45,000 nt of DNA from Candidatus Pacearchaeota archaeon (GTDB taxonomy: Archaea > Nanobdellota > Nanobdellia > Pacearchaeales > GW2011-AR1). The stretch lies in the NCBI GenBank assembly GCA_016867035.1, contig VGKO01000003.1, forward strand, positions 1 through 45,000, read 5' to 3'. The notes beneath the pieces are model-generated. The model saw nothing but the letters and a program-made list of their open reading frames with translations, did not search any database and was not told the origin of the DNA. Below, in pieces: positions 2,072 through 16,720 of the stretch; within the stretch, counting starts at the first letter, position 1, and every line of letters starts with the position of its first letter. The translations under genes were made by a program, and so were the position numbers.

Positions 2072-2341
2072 ATGATAAAACAATTATCAAGATTAATTTA
2101 CCTTGGAATATTAACAATTATAACTGGGTGTTCTCAACAAAATTATCCAAGAGCCACAGGGGAATTAGTTGATTTCGGGGATTTTCCTAGCCCAAGAACA
2201 AGCTTATTCGATAACTTTGACCCCCTATATAGAAAACAAGAGTTTATACCCCAACCAAATGGTCAAGGTCAAATATGTTTTATCAAACAAGAATCAAGCA
2301 ATACTTATTTTAATGTTTCTCTTCTACCTGAAGAACAATAA
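2072..2341 (+). CDS. Small putative lipoprotein
   Basis: Signal peptide followed by lipobox-like ITGC. Confidence 0.45.
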   Translation: MIKQLSRLIYLGILTIITGCSQQNYPRATGELVDFGDFPSPRTSLFDNFDPLYRKQEFIPQPNGQGQICFIKQESSNTYFNVSLLPEEQ

Positions 2342-7867: not shown

Positions 7868-8230
7868 ATGAGAAGATTATTTGGGGCAGGTTTAGGAATT
7901 TTGCTTGGATTAAGTACGCTTGCCGGAGCTCAAACTAATTCCCTGCCAAGAATTTTGCAAGAATATAATAGACCAAATGTTTCTCATACAATTGTTACAA
8001 CCAATAATCCTGTTAAATTTAATGAAAATGGAAGAGATTATACTCTTGAAGTTTTAAAAGTAAATAGAGAAGCAGAAAGAGCAACAATTAGATTAAGCAC
8101 ACCAGGTTGGAGGGGTCCTTATGTTCAAGAAGTTAAGAAGGGAGAAGATTATACCTCTTCTGGATTAATTTTAAGATTTTTTGAATTTGGAGATAATGGT
8201 GTTGTTTTAATGCGAGCTAAAAGTCGATAG
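7868..8230 (+). CDS. Small secreted protein
   Basis: Signal peptide MRRLFGAGLGILLGLSTLAGAQ, beta-rich remainder. Confidence 0.5.
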   Translation: MRRLFGAGLGILLGLSTLAGAQTNSLPRILQEYNRPNVSHTIVTTNNPVKFNENGRDYTLEVLKVNREAERATIRLSTPGWRGPYVQEVKKGEDYTSSGLILRFFEFGDNGVVLMRAKSR

Positions 8231-8310: not shown

Positions 8311-8823
8311 ATGATAAAAAATTATCTTACTCGACTTATTAGCAGTTTGGCTTTAACTTGTTCTATTTTGCAAGCCCAAGAACCCGCTCCCGAACAACCA
8401 TCGGATTTAGAAATATTAACCAACCAAGTAAATTTTTCTTCTGCCGATGTAGACTTAAATAATAGGATAAATTGGCAAGAGTATTATGGTTATTTTGATA
8501 GACAGTATACGAATGGTATCCCTCCGCTGGTTCTAAATAGCCTAAGAAAGGATTTTGATAGGTATGATGCTAATAGAGATAGAGCCGTAACTGATGCAGA
8601 ATATGCTAATGGCAATCTTCCTGAAGATCCAAAAGATATAGAGGACATAAAACAACCCCCTAAACCAAAAAGAGATAGAAGTATAAAACAACTTTATAGT
8701 TGGGGAAAAGGCATAAACTCCAGAATAAATAAAATAAAAGTAGCTTATCAAAAAGCCCTTAAGAAAATAGAGGAAGAAAAAAAGAAAGAGGAAGAAAAAG
8801 CAAAGAAAACATCTAAAAAATAG
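8311..8823 (+). CDS. Exported EF-hand-like Ca2+-binding protein with charged C-terminal tail
   Basis: Two 12-residue loops fitting EF-hand spacing: DVDLNNRINWQE and DANRDRAVTDAE; signal peptide; Lys/Glu-rich tail. Confidence 0.6.
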   Translation: MIKNYLTRLISSLALTCSILQAQEPAPEQPSDLEILTNQVNFSSADVDLNNRINWQEYYGYFDRQYTNGIPPLVLNSLRKDFDRYDANRDRAVTDAEYANGNLPEDPKDIEDIKQPPKPKRDRSIKQLYSWGKGINSRINKIKVAYQKALKKIEEEKKKEEEKAKKTSKK

Positions 8824-10014: not shown

Positions 10015-10731
10015 ATGAAAAAAGCAATTGCTAAAATTGCACTTGGTTTGAGTCTTGCGTTAAGTAGTTTAAATAGTTTTGGAGGCTTAGAACAGACCAA
10101 AACAAATTTAGAAGCCAGAGTTGCATCTCTAACTCAAGACTCTTTTGCGATTAAATCAGAAACAACAGGAGCAATAAGTGCTCCTGTAAACTTGGTGCAG
10201 AGCTTTTCATTACAACCCTTGCTTGTTGGAAAGGCTACAATGGCCTTAGCAAACTCTCCTTATTTTTGTTATAGCAATAATCAGGAAATAATCTTTTATA
10301 CTTCACAGGGTTATACTTCAAGATATCAAATAGTCGCCCATAATTCTAAACCCTGTGGAGAGGGATTTAACCAAATAATACTTATAAAAGGAAACAGAGT
10401 ATTTGGAAAATTTGATTCTTGTATGGATATAGATTTCTCAAGCAATCCGGACAATACCACAAGATATAGAAGTAAGATGTTTATTAAATTGGAGAATGGT
10501 TTTCTTGGAGCTATTTTACGAGGCATACTCCGGGTTCCTTTATTGGGGGATAAATTAAAAAAATCTCTAGAAGAGGAACAAGACAAACTTGTTCAAAGCA
10601 CAAATAAAGTCGTGGAAGATGCTTTGAAAAAGCCAAGAGAGACTCTCGAAAAGTTAGAGGGATATACAAATGGACCCACTTATTTTACCCCCAAAGAACT
10701 CGAATCTATAAGAGAAAAGATTGAAAAATAA
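10015..10731 (+). CDS. Secreted hypothetical protein
   Basis: Signal peptide MKKAIAKIALGLSLALSSLNSFG. Confidence 0.5.
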   Translation: MKKAIAKIALGLSLALSSLNSFGGLEQTKTNLEARVASLTQDSFAIKSETTGAISAPVNLVQSFSLQPLLVGKATMALANSPYFCYSNNQEIIFYTSQGYTSRYQIVAHNSKPCGEGFNQIILIKGNRVFGKFDSCMDIDFSSNPDNTTRYRSKMFIKLENGFLGAILRGILRVPLLGDKLKKSLEEEQDKLVQSTNKVVEDALKKPRETLEKLEGYTNGPTYFTPKELESIREKIEK

Positions 10732-10765: not shown

Positions 10766-11344
10766 GTGGAAAAGGGGAAAAGCACAATCTTTATAATAGT
10801 CCTAAGTATTATCTTAATTATAACTGGAATTTTATTATTTACAGATATTATAAAAGAAAACAAAACTGAAAACAAAGAAATGCAAAACACAACAAAAGTT
10901 TTACTTGAAACCAATATGGGGGATATAACTTTAGAGCTATATTCTGAACAAACGATAACTTCTGGAAATTTTATCAGCTTAGTTGAGAAAGGAACCTATA
11001 ATGGAGTTATTTTCCATAGGGTTATTGATGGATTTATGATTCAAGGCGGCGATCCGACTGGAACAGGTTACGGAGATCCTAAAATAAAAAATATTCGCGA
11101 TGAATTTAATGGAGAGCAAAAAAATAATAGAGGAACGATTGCAATGGCTAATGCTGGCCCAAATACTGGCTCTAGCCAGTTTTTTATCAATCTAGTCAAT
11201 AATAATTTCTTAGATGGAAGACATCCTGTTTTTGGCCGAGTTGTTTCAGGCATGGATGTTGTAGATGCCATAGCTAAGGTTGAAACAAACTCTGCAGATA
11301 AACCTTTGAAAGAAGTTAAGATAATTACAGCTAAAATATTATAA
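10766..11344 (+). CDS. Membrane-anchored cyclophilin-type peptidyl-prolyl cis-trans isomerase
   Basis: GNFISLVEKGTYNGVIFHRVIDGFMIQGGDPTGTGYG...GTIAMANAGPNTGSSQFFINL; N-terminal TM; apparent GTG start. Confidence 0.92.
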   Translation: MEKGKSTIFIIVLSIILIITGILLFTDIIKENKTENKEMQNTTKVLLETNMGDITLELYSEQTITSGNFISLVEKGTYNGVIFHRVIDGFMIQGGDPTGTGYGDPKIKNIRDEFNGEQKNNRGTIAMANAGPNTGSSQFFINLVNNNFLDGRHPVFGRVVSGMDVVDAIAKVETNSADKPLKEVKIITAKIL

Positions 11345-11592: not shown

Positions 11593-12366
11593 TTAGAAAT
11601 TACAAATAACGCCTAAAGAAAAAGAATTAAGAGTGCCTGCTTCGCCTGTATTGCTATTGCCTGAATCAAGGCTATAGGTTTCATAAGAAGCTTCTAAACC
11701 AACATTGGTGCCTAAACTTGAATCATTTTTTGACGTATCAAGCCCTATAAAACCTGCTCTAACTCCAAAACCTTTTAAGTTATATTTTTCTGAACCAACT
11801 TCTTCAAAGCTATCATATCGGTGATGCCCCCAGCTTCTTGTAGCTTTTTGAATTGGAATAAAACCATTTACGAAAAATCGCGTTGTATCTGTTTTAAAAG
11901 ATAATCCTACAAAAGGTTGAACTCCGAAAAAATCTCTCTGCAAATAGTCCATTGCAAAAGAACCAGAGCCCTCTGGTCTTGTATCGCCTTGTTGTTGTCT
12001 ATAATCGGGGATTGTTGGGCCATCCTTTGGTTCAACTAAAACGCTATCAAAATTAAGTTCTAAATCAACTCCTGCTGTTAACTCTAATCTCCCTAAATCT
12101 TTTGCTAATTCAACTCCTGGACGAATAGCAAAGGCTTCCCAGCCATTACCTGCTCTAACCCAAGTACTCCCGCTAATAAAACCGGCATCAGCAGGATGAA
12201 CAGGCACTTCTCGAGATTCATTTAAGCTAAGTTGATTGTATCTCGGAGCATAGGCAATTCTACCCCTTAATGATAAACTTTTAGGTAGAAAAGATTCGGC
12301 TCTTGCAGGTAAACTAGCACAACCAGCAGCTAATGCCAAAGCAGCCATCGCTAATAACTTTTTCAT
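11593..12366 (-). CDS. Exported putative beta-barrel (outer-membrane-protein-like) protein
   Basis: Start MKKLLAMAALALAAGCASLPARAE at 12366 (signal peptide/lipobox), repeated amphipathic beta-strand patterns, C-terminal ...NSFSLGVICNF ending in Phe. Confidence 0.5.
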   Translation of the reverse strand: MKKLLAMAALALAAGCASLPARAESFLPKSLSLRGRIAYAPRYNQLSLNESREVPVHPADAGFISGSTWVRAGNGWEAFAIRPGVELAKDLGRLELTAGVDLELNFDSVLVEPKDGPTIPDYRQQQGDTRPEGSGSFAMDYLQRDFFGVQPFVGLSFKTDTTRFFVNGFIPIQKATRSWGHHRYDSFEEVGSEKYNLKGFGVRAGFIGLDTSKNDSSLGTNVGLEASYETYSLDSGNSNTGEAGTLNSFSLGVICNF

Positions 12367-12430
12367 AAAAAAACAGGGTAATTCGGGCTTAAAAGCATTA
12401 TCAATGTTGAAAATATATCTTAATCTCTCT

Positions 12431-13250: not shown

Positions 13251-14249
13251 ATGTACTTAGAAAAAAGAAAAACAAAAAAAGGTGAAAAATACTATTTAGC
13301 ACACTCTTTTCGCGAAGGTGGTAAAGTAAACAAGATTAGGGTTTATCTTGGTTCAAATGTTGCTATTCATATTATTCAACAAAGACAGGAGAAAGCTACA
13401 GAGTTATTAAAACAACAACTTAATAGTTTTAAGATAATCAGAAGCCCTATCAATACAAATTTTCTAAGGCGTGAAGAATCACTTATTAAAAAACTGAAAT
13501 TAAAGACTCGATTAAAAGTTATACATCTCTCGGAGAGCGATTGGGAAAGATTTACACAGCTTTTTACTTATAATACTAATGCTATTGAAGGTTCTACTAT
13601 AACCCAAGAAGAAGTTTTTGATATACTCCAAGAAAATAAATGGCCATTTTCAAAACCTAAAGAGGATATTTCAGAAGCTTATGGTGTTGCAGAAGCAATA
13701 AAATATATTAGAAAATCACGAGAACATATTTCGCTTGCTTTAATGCTTAAATTACATGAGATAATCTTTCATAATTCAAAGACTTTTGCAGGTAAGTTTA
13801 GAGAAAAAGGAGTTGAAGTTGGTATTCGCGATGGAACAGGCAACATAGTCCACTTGGGTGCTCCTTCTTCAAGGGTTGCAGGTTTACTTGGTGAATTGGT
13901 TAAATGGTATAATCAAAATAAGAAAAAATATCCCCCTATAGTTCTTGGGGCTGTTATTCATAATCAATTTGAATATATTCACCCCTTTGAAGATGGAAAT
14001 GGGAGAGTCGGAAGGCTTCTGTTAAATAATATATTGATAAAAAATAAGATGCCCCCTGTAAATATATCTATGGAAAGTCGCAAAGAATACTACGAAACCC
14101 TTAGATTATTCCAAAGAACAGGCGATATTAAGCCTACTATTGACTTGATACTTCGAGAGTATCATGAACTGGAGAAAAAATTAAAGAAACAGGAAAAGGA
14201 AAACAAGAAAGGCAAACTAGATAAAAAACCCAGAAAAAAGAAAATTTAA
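13251..14249 (+). CDS. Fic/DOC family protein (putative AMP-transferase)
   Basis: Fic motif HPFEDGNGRVGRLLLNN; N-terminal inhibitory-like motif TNAIEGS; Lys-rich tail. Confidence 0.92.
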   Translation: MYLEKRKTKKGEKYYLAHSFREGGKVNKIRVYLGSNVAIHIIQQRQEKATELLKQQLNSFKIIRSPINTNFLRREESLIKKLKLKTRLKVIHLSESDWERFTQLFTYNTNAIEGSTITQEEVFDILQENKWPFSKPKEDISEAYGVAEAIKYIRKSREHISLALMLKLHEIIFHNSKTFAGKFREKGVEVGIRDGTGNIVHLGAPSSRVAGLLGELVKWYNQNKKKYPPIVLGAVIHNQFEYIHPFEDGNGRVGRLLLNNILIKNKMPPVNISMESRKEYYETLRLFQRTGDIKPTIDLILREYHELEKKLKKQEKENKKGKLDKKPRKKKI

Positions 14250-14680: not shown

Positions 14681-15673
14681 TTAGTATTGAGTTAAAGGGG
14701 AGTCTTTATCTCCTTTAGCTTGTACTAGTTCTCTATAAGCTTGACTTGAAGCTATTGCTCCCTGACTAGCTGCAACAACTATTTGCTTGAACTCATTATG
14801 AATAATATCCCCGGCGGCAAAAAATCCTTCTACATTTGTTTTCTGATTTTCATCAGTAAGGATATAGTTATCCTTTGTCTTTACATTTAAAGAAGCGATT
14901 ATTCCCAAATCAGGTAAGCCGCCTGCTTCGATAAAAACACCATTAACATTCAGTATTTTCTTAGAGTTCTTTAATAAAACTCCTTCCACCTTACTTTTAC
15001 CAATAATTTCTGCAAGTTCTTCATTAAAAATAGTCTCTATCTTCTGGTTTTTCTTTATAACATTCAATAATATCTTATCAGGTCTAAAAAACTCTGACTT
15101 TCTATAAATGAGATAAATCTTGCTAGCATGTTCTGCAAGTAAAATTGCAGCAGATATTGCAGAATTGCCTCCGCCTACTACGACTACATTTTTATTCTTA
15201 AAGAAGGGAGCATCACAATTTGCACAGTAACTAACGCCTCTTCCTTTTAGCTCGGATTCACCCTTTATCTCAAGCTTTTTTCTTACTGAACCTGGAGCAA
15301 AAATTACTTTCTTAGCTAAAAAAGATTTAAGATTTGTTTTAATTTCAAAGATTTCTTTTTCTTTAAAAATCCCCTTAATTTCGTCGAATAATACTTCAAC
15401 ACCTATTGACTTTACATGTTCTAAAAACTTTTCAGCCAAATCTTTTCCAGAAATTTCAGAAAATCCTGGATAATTACAAATTTTATGTGCTCCAGCCCAA
15501 TCATCACCGACTTCCCGAGTTATTAATAGAGTTTTTAATCCAAAGCGCTTAGAATAAACTGCAGCACTAACTCCGGCAGGACCCCCGCCAATAATAACTA
15601 TATCATAAAGATTACTTTTACTATTAGATTTATTATGGTTATTGCCAATTTTGTTTTTAGGTAGTTTGGTCAT
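14681..15673 (-). CDS. trxB: Thioredoxin reductase
   Basis: FAD motif IIGGGPAGVSAAVYSKR, redox CANC, NAD motif VVGGGNSAISAA, C-terminal GFFAAGDI. Confidence 0.93.
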   Translation of the reverse strand: MTKLPKNKIGNNHNKSNSKSNLYDIVIIGGGPAGVSAAVYSKRFGLKTLLITREVGDDWAGAHKICNYPGFSEISGKDLAEKFLEHVKSIGVEVLFDEIKGIFKEKEIFEIKTNLKSFLAKKVIFAPGSVRKKLEIKGESELKGRGVSYCANCDAPFFKNKNVVVVGGGNSAISAAILLAEHASKIYLIYRKSEFFRPDKILLNVIKKNQKIETIFNEELAEIIGKSKVEGVLLKNSKKILNVNGVFIEAGGLPDLGIIASLNVKTKDNYILTDENQKTNVEGFFAAGDIIHNEFKQIVVAASQGAIASSQAYRELVQAKGDKDSPLTQY

Positions 15674-15713
15674 TTGTTGTTGGTTTTGATTGGAAATTGC
15701 TTTCCAAAAATTA

Positions 15714-16031
15714 TTAAATTATTGAATCTATCTTTTCTTTTATGGCTTCTTCCGGAGCATAGCCTACTATTCTATCGACTTCTTGTCCTTTTTTTGCTAT
15801 GACTAGTGCAGGAATACCTTGAATATTAAAATCCGAGGCTAATTCTTGATTTTCGTCAACATTTATTTTAACGAATTTTAATTTTCCCTTATATTGGCCG
15901 CTGAGTTTTTCAAATACTGGCGCCATCATTTTACAAGGCATACACCAATCTGCATAAAAATCGATTATTACTGGTGTTTTTGAATCTACAACTTCTTTCT
16001 TAAAATCCCCTGAATTTATGTGTTCTACCAT
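15714..16031 (-). CDS. trxA: Thioredoxin
   Basis: DFYADWCMPCKMMAPVFEKL active site, 105 aa. Confidence 0.95.
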   Translation of the reverse strand: MVEHINSGDFKKEVVDSKTPVIIDFYADWCMPCKMMAPVFEKLSGQYKGKLKFVKINVDENQELASDFNIQGIPALVIAKKGQEVDRIVGYAPEEAIKEKIDSII

Positions 16032-16036
16032 ATTTT

Positions 16037-16112
16037 AGTACTGATATAAGAAAGCAGTACTTTATAAACGTTTTTAAGAACAGAAAGCGAAGCTTGCAAA
16101 AAGCAGTACTTT
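16037..16112. promoter_or_regulatory. Putative operator sites in the trxA promoter region
   Basis: AAAGCAGTACTTT at 16051-16063 and 16100-16112 plus inverted AGTACTG at 16037-16043; the first copy overlaps a minus-strand TTTATAAA box. Confidence 0.5.
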
Positions 16113-16174
16113 GAATAAAATTTTAAATATGCGAATTTGAAAACCTATTTAAATCATTAAAACCATTAAGTTAC

Positions 16175-16720
16175 ATGAAAAAAGTTGGTGCTATCGTAAA
16201 GATAATTAGTGTTATTTTTTTTATTTTAATGATTTTTTTATTATTATATAGTATATTCAACTATGCAGGCATAAGAGAACTAAGTAGAAACTTGATGTTG
16301 AATTATGGTTTGGGTGTTGTTTTTCTTCTCGCAATTTTTTTAGATGTATTTCCCCAATATCTCTCTGTACATATGCTTCTTATTATGGCTGGTATTGCTA
16401 ATTTAAATATTTGGTTAGTAGGTTCGGTAGTTACCGTAGGTACTTTTTTTGCTTCAATAATAGGGTTTTGGCTTGGAAGATTATTCGAGGATAATTTCTT
16501 TTTTGAAATTTTTGGGGAGAAAAACTACCGTAAAATACATGAGGGTATGAACCGCCACGGAAAATGGTATGTCGCTATATCGGCTATTTCGCCCTTGCCA
16601 TACATACCTATTATATTCGCTGCATTAGGTATGTCTTGGAAGAATTTTATGATCTACGGAGTTTTTCCTAGAATCCTGGGATTTATAGCTACAATAATTT
16701 TTGTTGCGGTGGTGTTTTAG
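16175..16720 (+). CDS. VTT/DedA-like (SNARE-associated) membrane protein
   Basis: Multi-TM with AISPLPYIPIIFAALGMSWKNFMIYGVFPR pattern. Confidence 0.65.
   Translation: MKKVGAIVKIISVIFFILMIFLLLYSIFNYAGIRELSRNLMLNYGLGVVFLLAIFLDVFPQYLSVHMLLIMAGIANLNIWLVGSVVTVGTFFASIIGFWLGRLFEDNFFFEIFGEKNYRKIHEGMNRHGKWYVAISAISPLPYIPIIFAALGMSWKNFMIYGVFPRILGFIATIIFVAVVF

Follow-up and report, generated by a model that had tools for sequence, protein, structure and literature searches.

A native gene for a probable outer-membrane-type beta-barrel protein in a DPANN-type archaeon

The window, as the whole 45,000-nucleotide stretch of DNA analysed is called here, is a 45-kb contig (G000:C3) of a 751-kb MAG, G000, which is 94.6% complete. 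The initial annotation had singled out an open reading frame encoding an exported, barrel-like protein. The frame is present, and all the peptides quoted from it were found, inclusive of the C-terminal NSFSLGVICNF. The encoded protein, P0001, and the features residing at the locus are the following:

10766-11344, forward strand: cyclophilin-type peptidyl-prolyl isomerase, on the other flank in both species of the genus (synteny marker).
11593-12366, reverse strand: coding sequence of P0001, a probable exported outer-membrane-type beta-barrel protein; ATG start, 257 aa (open reading frame, orthologue, AlphaFold2 model).
11596-11631, reverse strand: beta-signal-like last strand LNSFSLGVICNF, with G at -6 and F at -1 (sequence, ends of the array proteins of the second species, G001).
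11596-12297, reverse strand: predicted mature barrel domain (AlphaFold2 model and structural matches).
12298-12366, reverse strand: predicted Sec signal peptide, residues 1-23, MKKLLAMAALALAAGCASLPARA (sequence, script, alignment with the orthologue signal peptide).
12387-12417, reverse strand: 31-bp element TATATTTTCAAYATTGATAAT..TTTTAAGC, AT-rich and promoter-like, with a TCAAYATTGA palindrome, starting 51 nt before the ATG.
13251-14249, forward strand: Fic-domain protein, divergent neighbour in both species (synteny marker).

As in the outer membrane protein (OMP) class, an N-terminal Sec signal peptide is recognized in P0001 by sequence, by script and by alignment with the orthologue, and cleavage is predicted before E24 (MKKLLAMAALALAAGCASLPARA followed by ES). 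The lipobox formerly read in the same region is probably a misreading. The LAAGC string occurs in P0001 only, and the corresponding region of the orthologue P0005 (MKLLKTILSSALLASALITSAPA followed by ED) has no Cys at the site; the conserved lipobox Cys of bacterial-type lipoproteins is therefore missing, and LspA was found in neither genome of the genus. Since the orthologue lacks the Cys, cleavage by ordinary signal peptidase I appears more likely than processing as a lipoprotein. A bacterial-type Lgt (prolipoprotein diacylglyceryl transferase) is encoded at L005:15156-15932 in G001 (145 bits), and was not found in G000. In a survey of the secretome in selected stretches of the genomes, signal peptides of bacterial style, with a lipobox-like motif, were noticed on numerous small exported proteins of both species (window 2072-2341; L028:7343-7723; L030:2429-3301; L035:17400-17870; L073:2788-3609; L022:8156-8566; L015:7365-7793). 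Also exported is a window protein in which calcium-binding motifs of EF-hand type are weakly recognizable (8311-8823); other small secreted proteins are encoded near it (7868-8230 and 10015-10731). Twin-arginine-like signals (MDRRDFIKASALAALG; REAIKRGIIGTAG) mark similar-looking exported proteins at L032:18161-19450 in G000 and L013:10868-12181 in G001.

The second species of the genus, G001, is the uncultured archaeon LaPlata_bin-1599 (CAIPOI010000002.1; 89% complete). It hosts an orthologue of P0001 (44% identity, E 3e-55), the alignment with which contains highly conserved stretches, and a paralogue (30% identity). Both reside in an array of four genes encoding exported proteins (L005:2995-6225), the paralogue being the first and the orthologue the last; G000 has one copy. 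The middle two genes make up a separate sub-family, and homology between the two sub-families, A1 and A2, is not demonstrable (hhalign probability 20%). The array is flanked by matching Fic and cyclophilin genes, and rpoA and rpoB lie on the same 173-kb contig. Among 200 genomes of the order, the P0001 sequence family was identified only in the two species of the genus; a weak match in G133 (E 0.0097) turned out to be a membrane protein of archaeal type without relation to P0001. G001 encodes one more pair of adjacent exported proteins, rich in aromatic residues (L019:14718-15428 and 15425-16516; C-termini ISLGYSF and YTYSFGGKK), which look barrel-like by eye; for the longer of the two, no homologue was recovered from G000 or from 54 other relatives.

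The element upstream of P0001 is 28/31 identical to that preceding the first array gene of G001, and is found 51 nt upstream in both. The alignment scores 25, whereas none of 500 shuffles exceeded 18. The palindrome reads TCAATATTGA, in the window TCAACATTGA. A looser copy precedes the second array gene, and scores 17 against the element of the window and 22 against that of the first array gene. In the sequence scanned, close copies were found only at these barrel loci; the remaining matches were weaker, and none accompanied an exported protein. This conservation indicates that P0001 has its own, maintained regulation, and did not land here as a stray insertion.

The initial annotation had warned that the contig may be chimeric, and had indicated codon usage as a means to recognize a bacterial intruder. 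The contig carries RpoB, RpoA'/A'', aEF-2 and EF-1alpha matching archaeal NCBIfam models. The codon score of P0001 falls at the 76th percentile of 434 genes and its GC3 at the 34th, values typical of the genome. Signal peptide and fold look bacterial, but a chimeric contig or bacterial contamination is an extremely improbable source of P0001, given these archaeal markers, the native codon usage and the matching synteny on the 173-kb contig of the other MAG. P0001 is a native, vertically kept gene of the archaeal genus. Restriction of the sequence family to two species, four copies in one and one in the other, and the bacterial style of the signal peptide would also fit a bacterial OMP gained horizontally which is now drifting or of marginal use, with no working part in the envelope. 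This is very unlikely, since the gene is intact in both species at 44% identity and with highly conserved stretches, its upstream element is conserved, an array is found in G001, and codon usage is native.

AlphaFold2, run on an alignment of three natural sequences, returned a model of P0001 with pLDDT 77.3 and pTM 0.71, in which low confidence is confined to the signal peptide and two loops. By our reading of the DSSP string the strands are eight (residues 31-48, 75-90, 94-108, 137-158, 162-183, 186-208, 221-235 and 242-256), and the fifth is interrupted at P171. The first two loops are long (26 and 28 aa), the first turns short (3 aa). A single-sequence prediction (pLDDT 31) was meaningless, and was discarded. 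When the model was compared with the PDB by Foldseek, all of the best 50 matches listed were outer-membrane barrels (best E 3.3e-6, probability 1.00), among which NspA, OpcA, OmpA, OmpT, OmpX, Ail, TodX, OmpG, FadL and porins. The sandwich or adhesin fold which, according to the initial annotation, would have spoken against a barrel did not emerge, the best 50 matches listed being closed outer-membrane barrels with no soluble barrel or sandwich among them. In turn, the best named matches among predicted viral proteins are phage-encoded outer-membrane proteins. TM-scores to small barrels are mostly 0.36-0.57 (rmsd about 7 A; maximum 0.57 on the target), and because of such modest values closure of the barrel and its exact shear are unproven. 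P0001 is probably a Sec-exported, eight-stranded outer-membrane-type beta-barrel protein, as the model suggests.

The amphipathic strands on which the barrel had originally been recognized are less telling. Alternation of hydrophobicity in P0001 is not distinctive relative to shuffled sequences (p = 0.10), and is equalled by that of an ordinary archaeal surface protein; the strands alone would be insufficient, and it is the eight-stranded fold prediction that makes the barrel reading convincing. P0001 and its homologues match no OMP family of Pfam or NCBIfam at E <= 10, no credible match to P0001 emerged from searches of PDB sequences, phages, plasmids or viral contigs, and homology of the barrel proteins with OmpW is not demonstrable by profile comparison. 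The ordinary alternation, the lack of family matches and the modest TM-scores would all be expected of a secreted or surface beta-meander, either a soluble barrel or an adhesin, which does not cross a membrane, and this lookalike is kept in play because the model rests on three sequences. We regard it as somewhat unlikely. Membrane barrels account for all of the best 50 structural matches listed, aromatic C-termini are found in 4/4 array proteins, and other exported barrels of the class match the Pfam OMP_b-brl profile, some above the cut-off.

The C-terminus of P0001 had been interpreted as the terminal-Phe beta-signal of bacterial OMPs, the published motif of which is Gly-X-X-Ar-X-Ar (PMC7383365). 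The likeness is partial: in the SLGVICNF end G at -6 and F at -1 are in place, but a C replaces the aromatic residue at -3. This position is aromatic in P0003 and P0004, and is T in P0005. The array proteins of G001 end with LGIFTRF, LGAIYKF, AGFNFKY and IEIKKRF. Of the 1137 ORFs called in the two genomes, 107 (9.4%) end with F, Y or W. The four array proteins end with F, F, Y and F, and at this rate four aromatic ends have a chance of 0.094^4, about 8e-5; the four were picked by homology or adjacency, not by C-terminal residue. Beta-signal-like ends are retained across divergent barrel copies.

A machinery able to read such a signal was expected to be missing, and the genome search agrees. 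Omp85 (PF01103) was found in neither G000 (94.6% complete) nor G001 (89%), even at E = 10, in a search where well-known diderm controls were positive; at this loose limit one archaeal control, too, gave a match, below threshold. In the class, Omp85 was identified in one of 378 genomes, G069. The protein (L088:3431-6538, on G069:C39) spans 1035 aa, is exported, and combines a TolB-like propeller with an Omp85 barrel at the C-terminus, which contains the stretch VRGYGKNKWG and ends with FFLGYNY. Its contig encodes archaeal Orc1/Cdc6, PolD small subunit and Lhr helicase. Though remarkable in itself, it comes from a different family of this order, and is no insertase of the genus of P0001.

Matches to Pfam OMP_b-brl (PF13505) were found at E <= 1e-4 in 12 of the 378 genomes of the class, 4 of them above the curated cut-off; exported proteins of this type reside at L089, L090, L091, L092, L095, L096, L097 and L100. 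The G121 barrel lies on a 351-kb contig and adjoins Dph2 and a thermosome subunit, that of its congener G115 adjoins an arginyl-tRNA-synthetase-like ORF, and that of G134 adjoins aRF1 (Dph2 and aRF1 were identified by Pfam, thermosome and ArgRS by reading the sequence). Some of the barrels follow large exported N-terminal regions. Most have aromatic ends (INFRYTF, LNLRYTF, ISLGIRF, GLRLGF, VGLTWRF, GLLEYRF and VRFSF), the remaining ending in L or with a short tail; the sample is biased because the PF13505 profile covers the C-terminal strand, whereas the ends of the G001 array are free of this bias. PF13505 does not detect P0001, the homology of which with the class barrels is not demonstrable (hhalign probability 2% against L097; the G134 barrel was likewise negative). 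With OMP_b-brl-like proteins in 12/378 genomes and Omp85 in 1/378, outer-membrane-type barrels are a recurrent presence in the class, unaccompanied by their insertase. No report of OMP-type barrels in DPANN was found in the open-licence literature searched.

In whose membrane would the barrel work? The leading reading, tentative and unproven, is that the site of action of P0001 is the outer membrane of a partner, a Gram-negative bacterium, whose BAM complex inserts it. P0001 would leave the archaeal cell unfolded via Sec, and the partner BAM would recognize its C-terminal signal; involvement of this complex is suggested by the end of the protein, which has kept the appearance of a signal for BAM. 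Clients reach BAM from the periplasmic side, and the archaeon must accordingly deliver P0001 into the periplasm of the partner; the archaeal cell, or its contact site, might open into this compartment, as in an invasive or predatory epibiont. Once inserted, the barrel may function where the two cells touch, either as a pore or by offering an anchor or a binding site. The OMP-like fold, the native gene, the retained beta-signal-like ends, the similar ends of other OMP_b-brl proteins in the class and the lack of a detectable Omp85 all speak for insertion by a partner. Against it, this archaeon has no known bacterial host, and the hosts of cultivated DPANN are archaeal (PMC11291902). The required route into the partner periplasm is a further difficulty, and so are the non-aromatic residues at -3 in P0001 and P0005 and the modest TM-scores. 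The beta-signal could also be a leftover of a bacterial donor, and a very divergent Omp85 could have been missed by the profile. The broader notion that some DPANN, living on or inside Gram-negatives, export OMP barrels, which the partner BAM reads by the beta-signal and builds into the outer membrane of the partner, is unlikely. If true, it would define a class of cross-domain effectors borrowing the membrane-protein assembly machine of the victim.

It is almost as likely, if doubtful, that the barrel sits in an outer membrane made by the archaeon itself, or in shed vesicles, inserts without BAM, and acts as a pore or a surface receptor of a diderm DPANN cell. Small OMPs can insert spontaneously in vitro, and folding of this kind needs no BAM. 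Archaea with two membranes exist, some of which ultrasmall, as known from ARMAN, SM1 and Ignicoccus (PMC4243693). Bacterial-style lipoprotein-like signal peptides in the genus, Lgt in G001, and the recurrence of barrels in the class, some placed as surface anchors behind large exported N-terminal regions, point in the same direction. Yet no sign of a second membrane was found in the order, unaided folding does not need a terminal aromatic residue so exactly retained, and Lgt was not found in G000, nor LspA in either genome. Insertion by the BAM of a partner is preferred, with due caution.

Barrels of the outer-membrane type are commonly attributed to diderm bacteria, mitochondria and plastids. 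The data support the presence and nativeness, and the predicted fold, of a bacterial-style barrel in a DPANN-type archaeon. The DPANN placement is that of the initial annotation, and agrees with genome size and gene content. One of two consequences would follow from recurrent exported barrels in small-genomed archaea devoid of the insertase: either these organisms have an outer membrane of their own, and its barrels are assembled by a novel route, or the outer membranes of bacteria are manipulated by them. Because the gene products are small and expressible, the question of whose membrane is directly testable.

Among known systems, P0001 resembles most the small eight-stranded barrels of Gram-negatives (the OmpA transmembrane domain, OmpX/Ail, NspA/Opa; PF13505), with which it shares a Sec signal peptide and, in the predicted fold, eight long antiparallel strands in an up-down meander, with the first loops long and the first turns short; the aromatic beta-signal at their C-terminus is matched in part. 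It differs from them in lacking sequence similarity (about 10-12% in structural alignments), and in being encoded by an archaeon without detectable Omp85. The OMP_b-brl-like proteins of the class (L090, L097, L100) similarly combine a signal peptide with a C-terminal barrel and mostly an aromatic end, but several carry large N-terminal regions. The pore-forming protein of Ignicoccus hospitalis is small and oligomeric, is not known to be an OmpA/OmpX-type barrel, and can be likened to P0001 by description only. It is likewise archaeal, and resides in the outer cellular membrane (PMC4243693). The OmpW-like and OMP beta-barrel proteins of tailed phages, found among the structural matches, offer the case of a barrel whose gene belongs to one genetic entity and whose destination is the outer membrane of a different one; the phage barrel is made inside the host cell, whereas the archaeal one would need to cross between cells.
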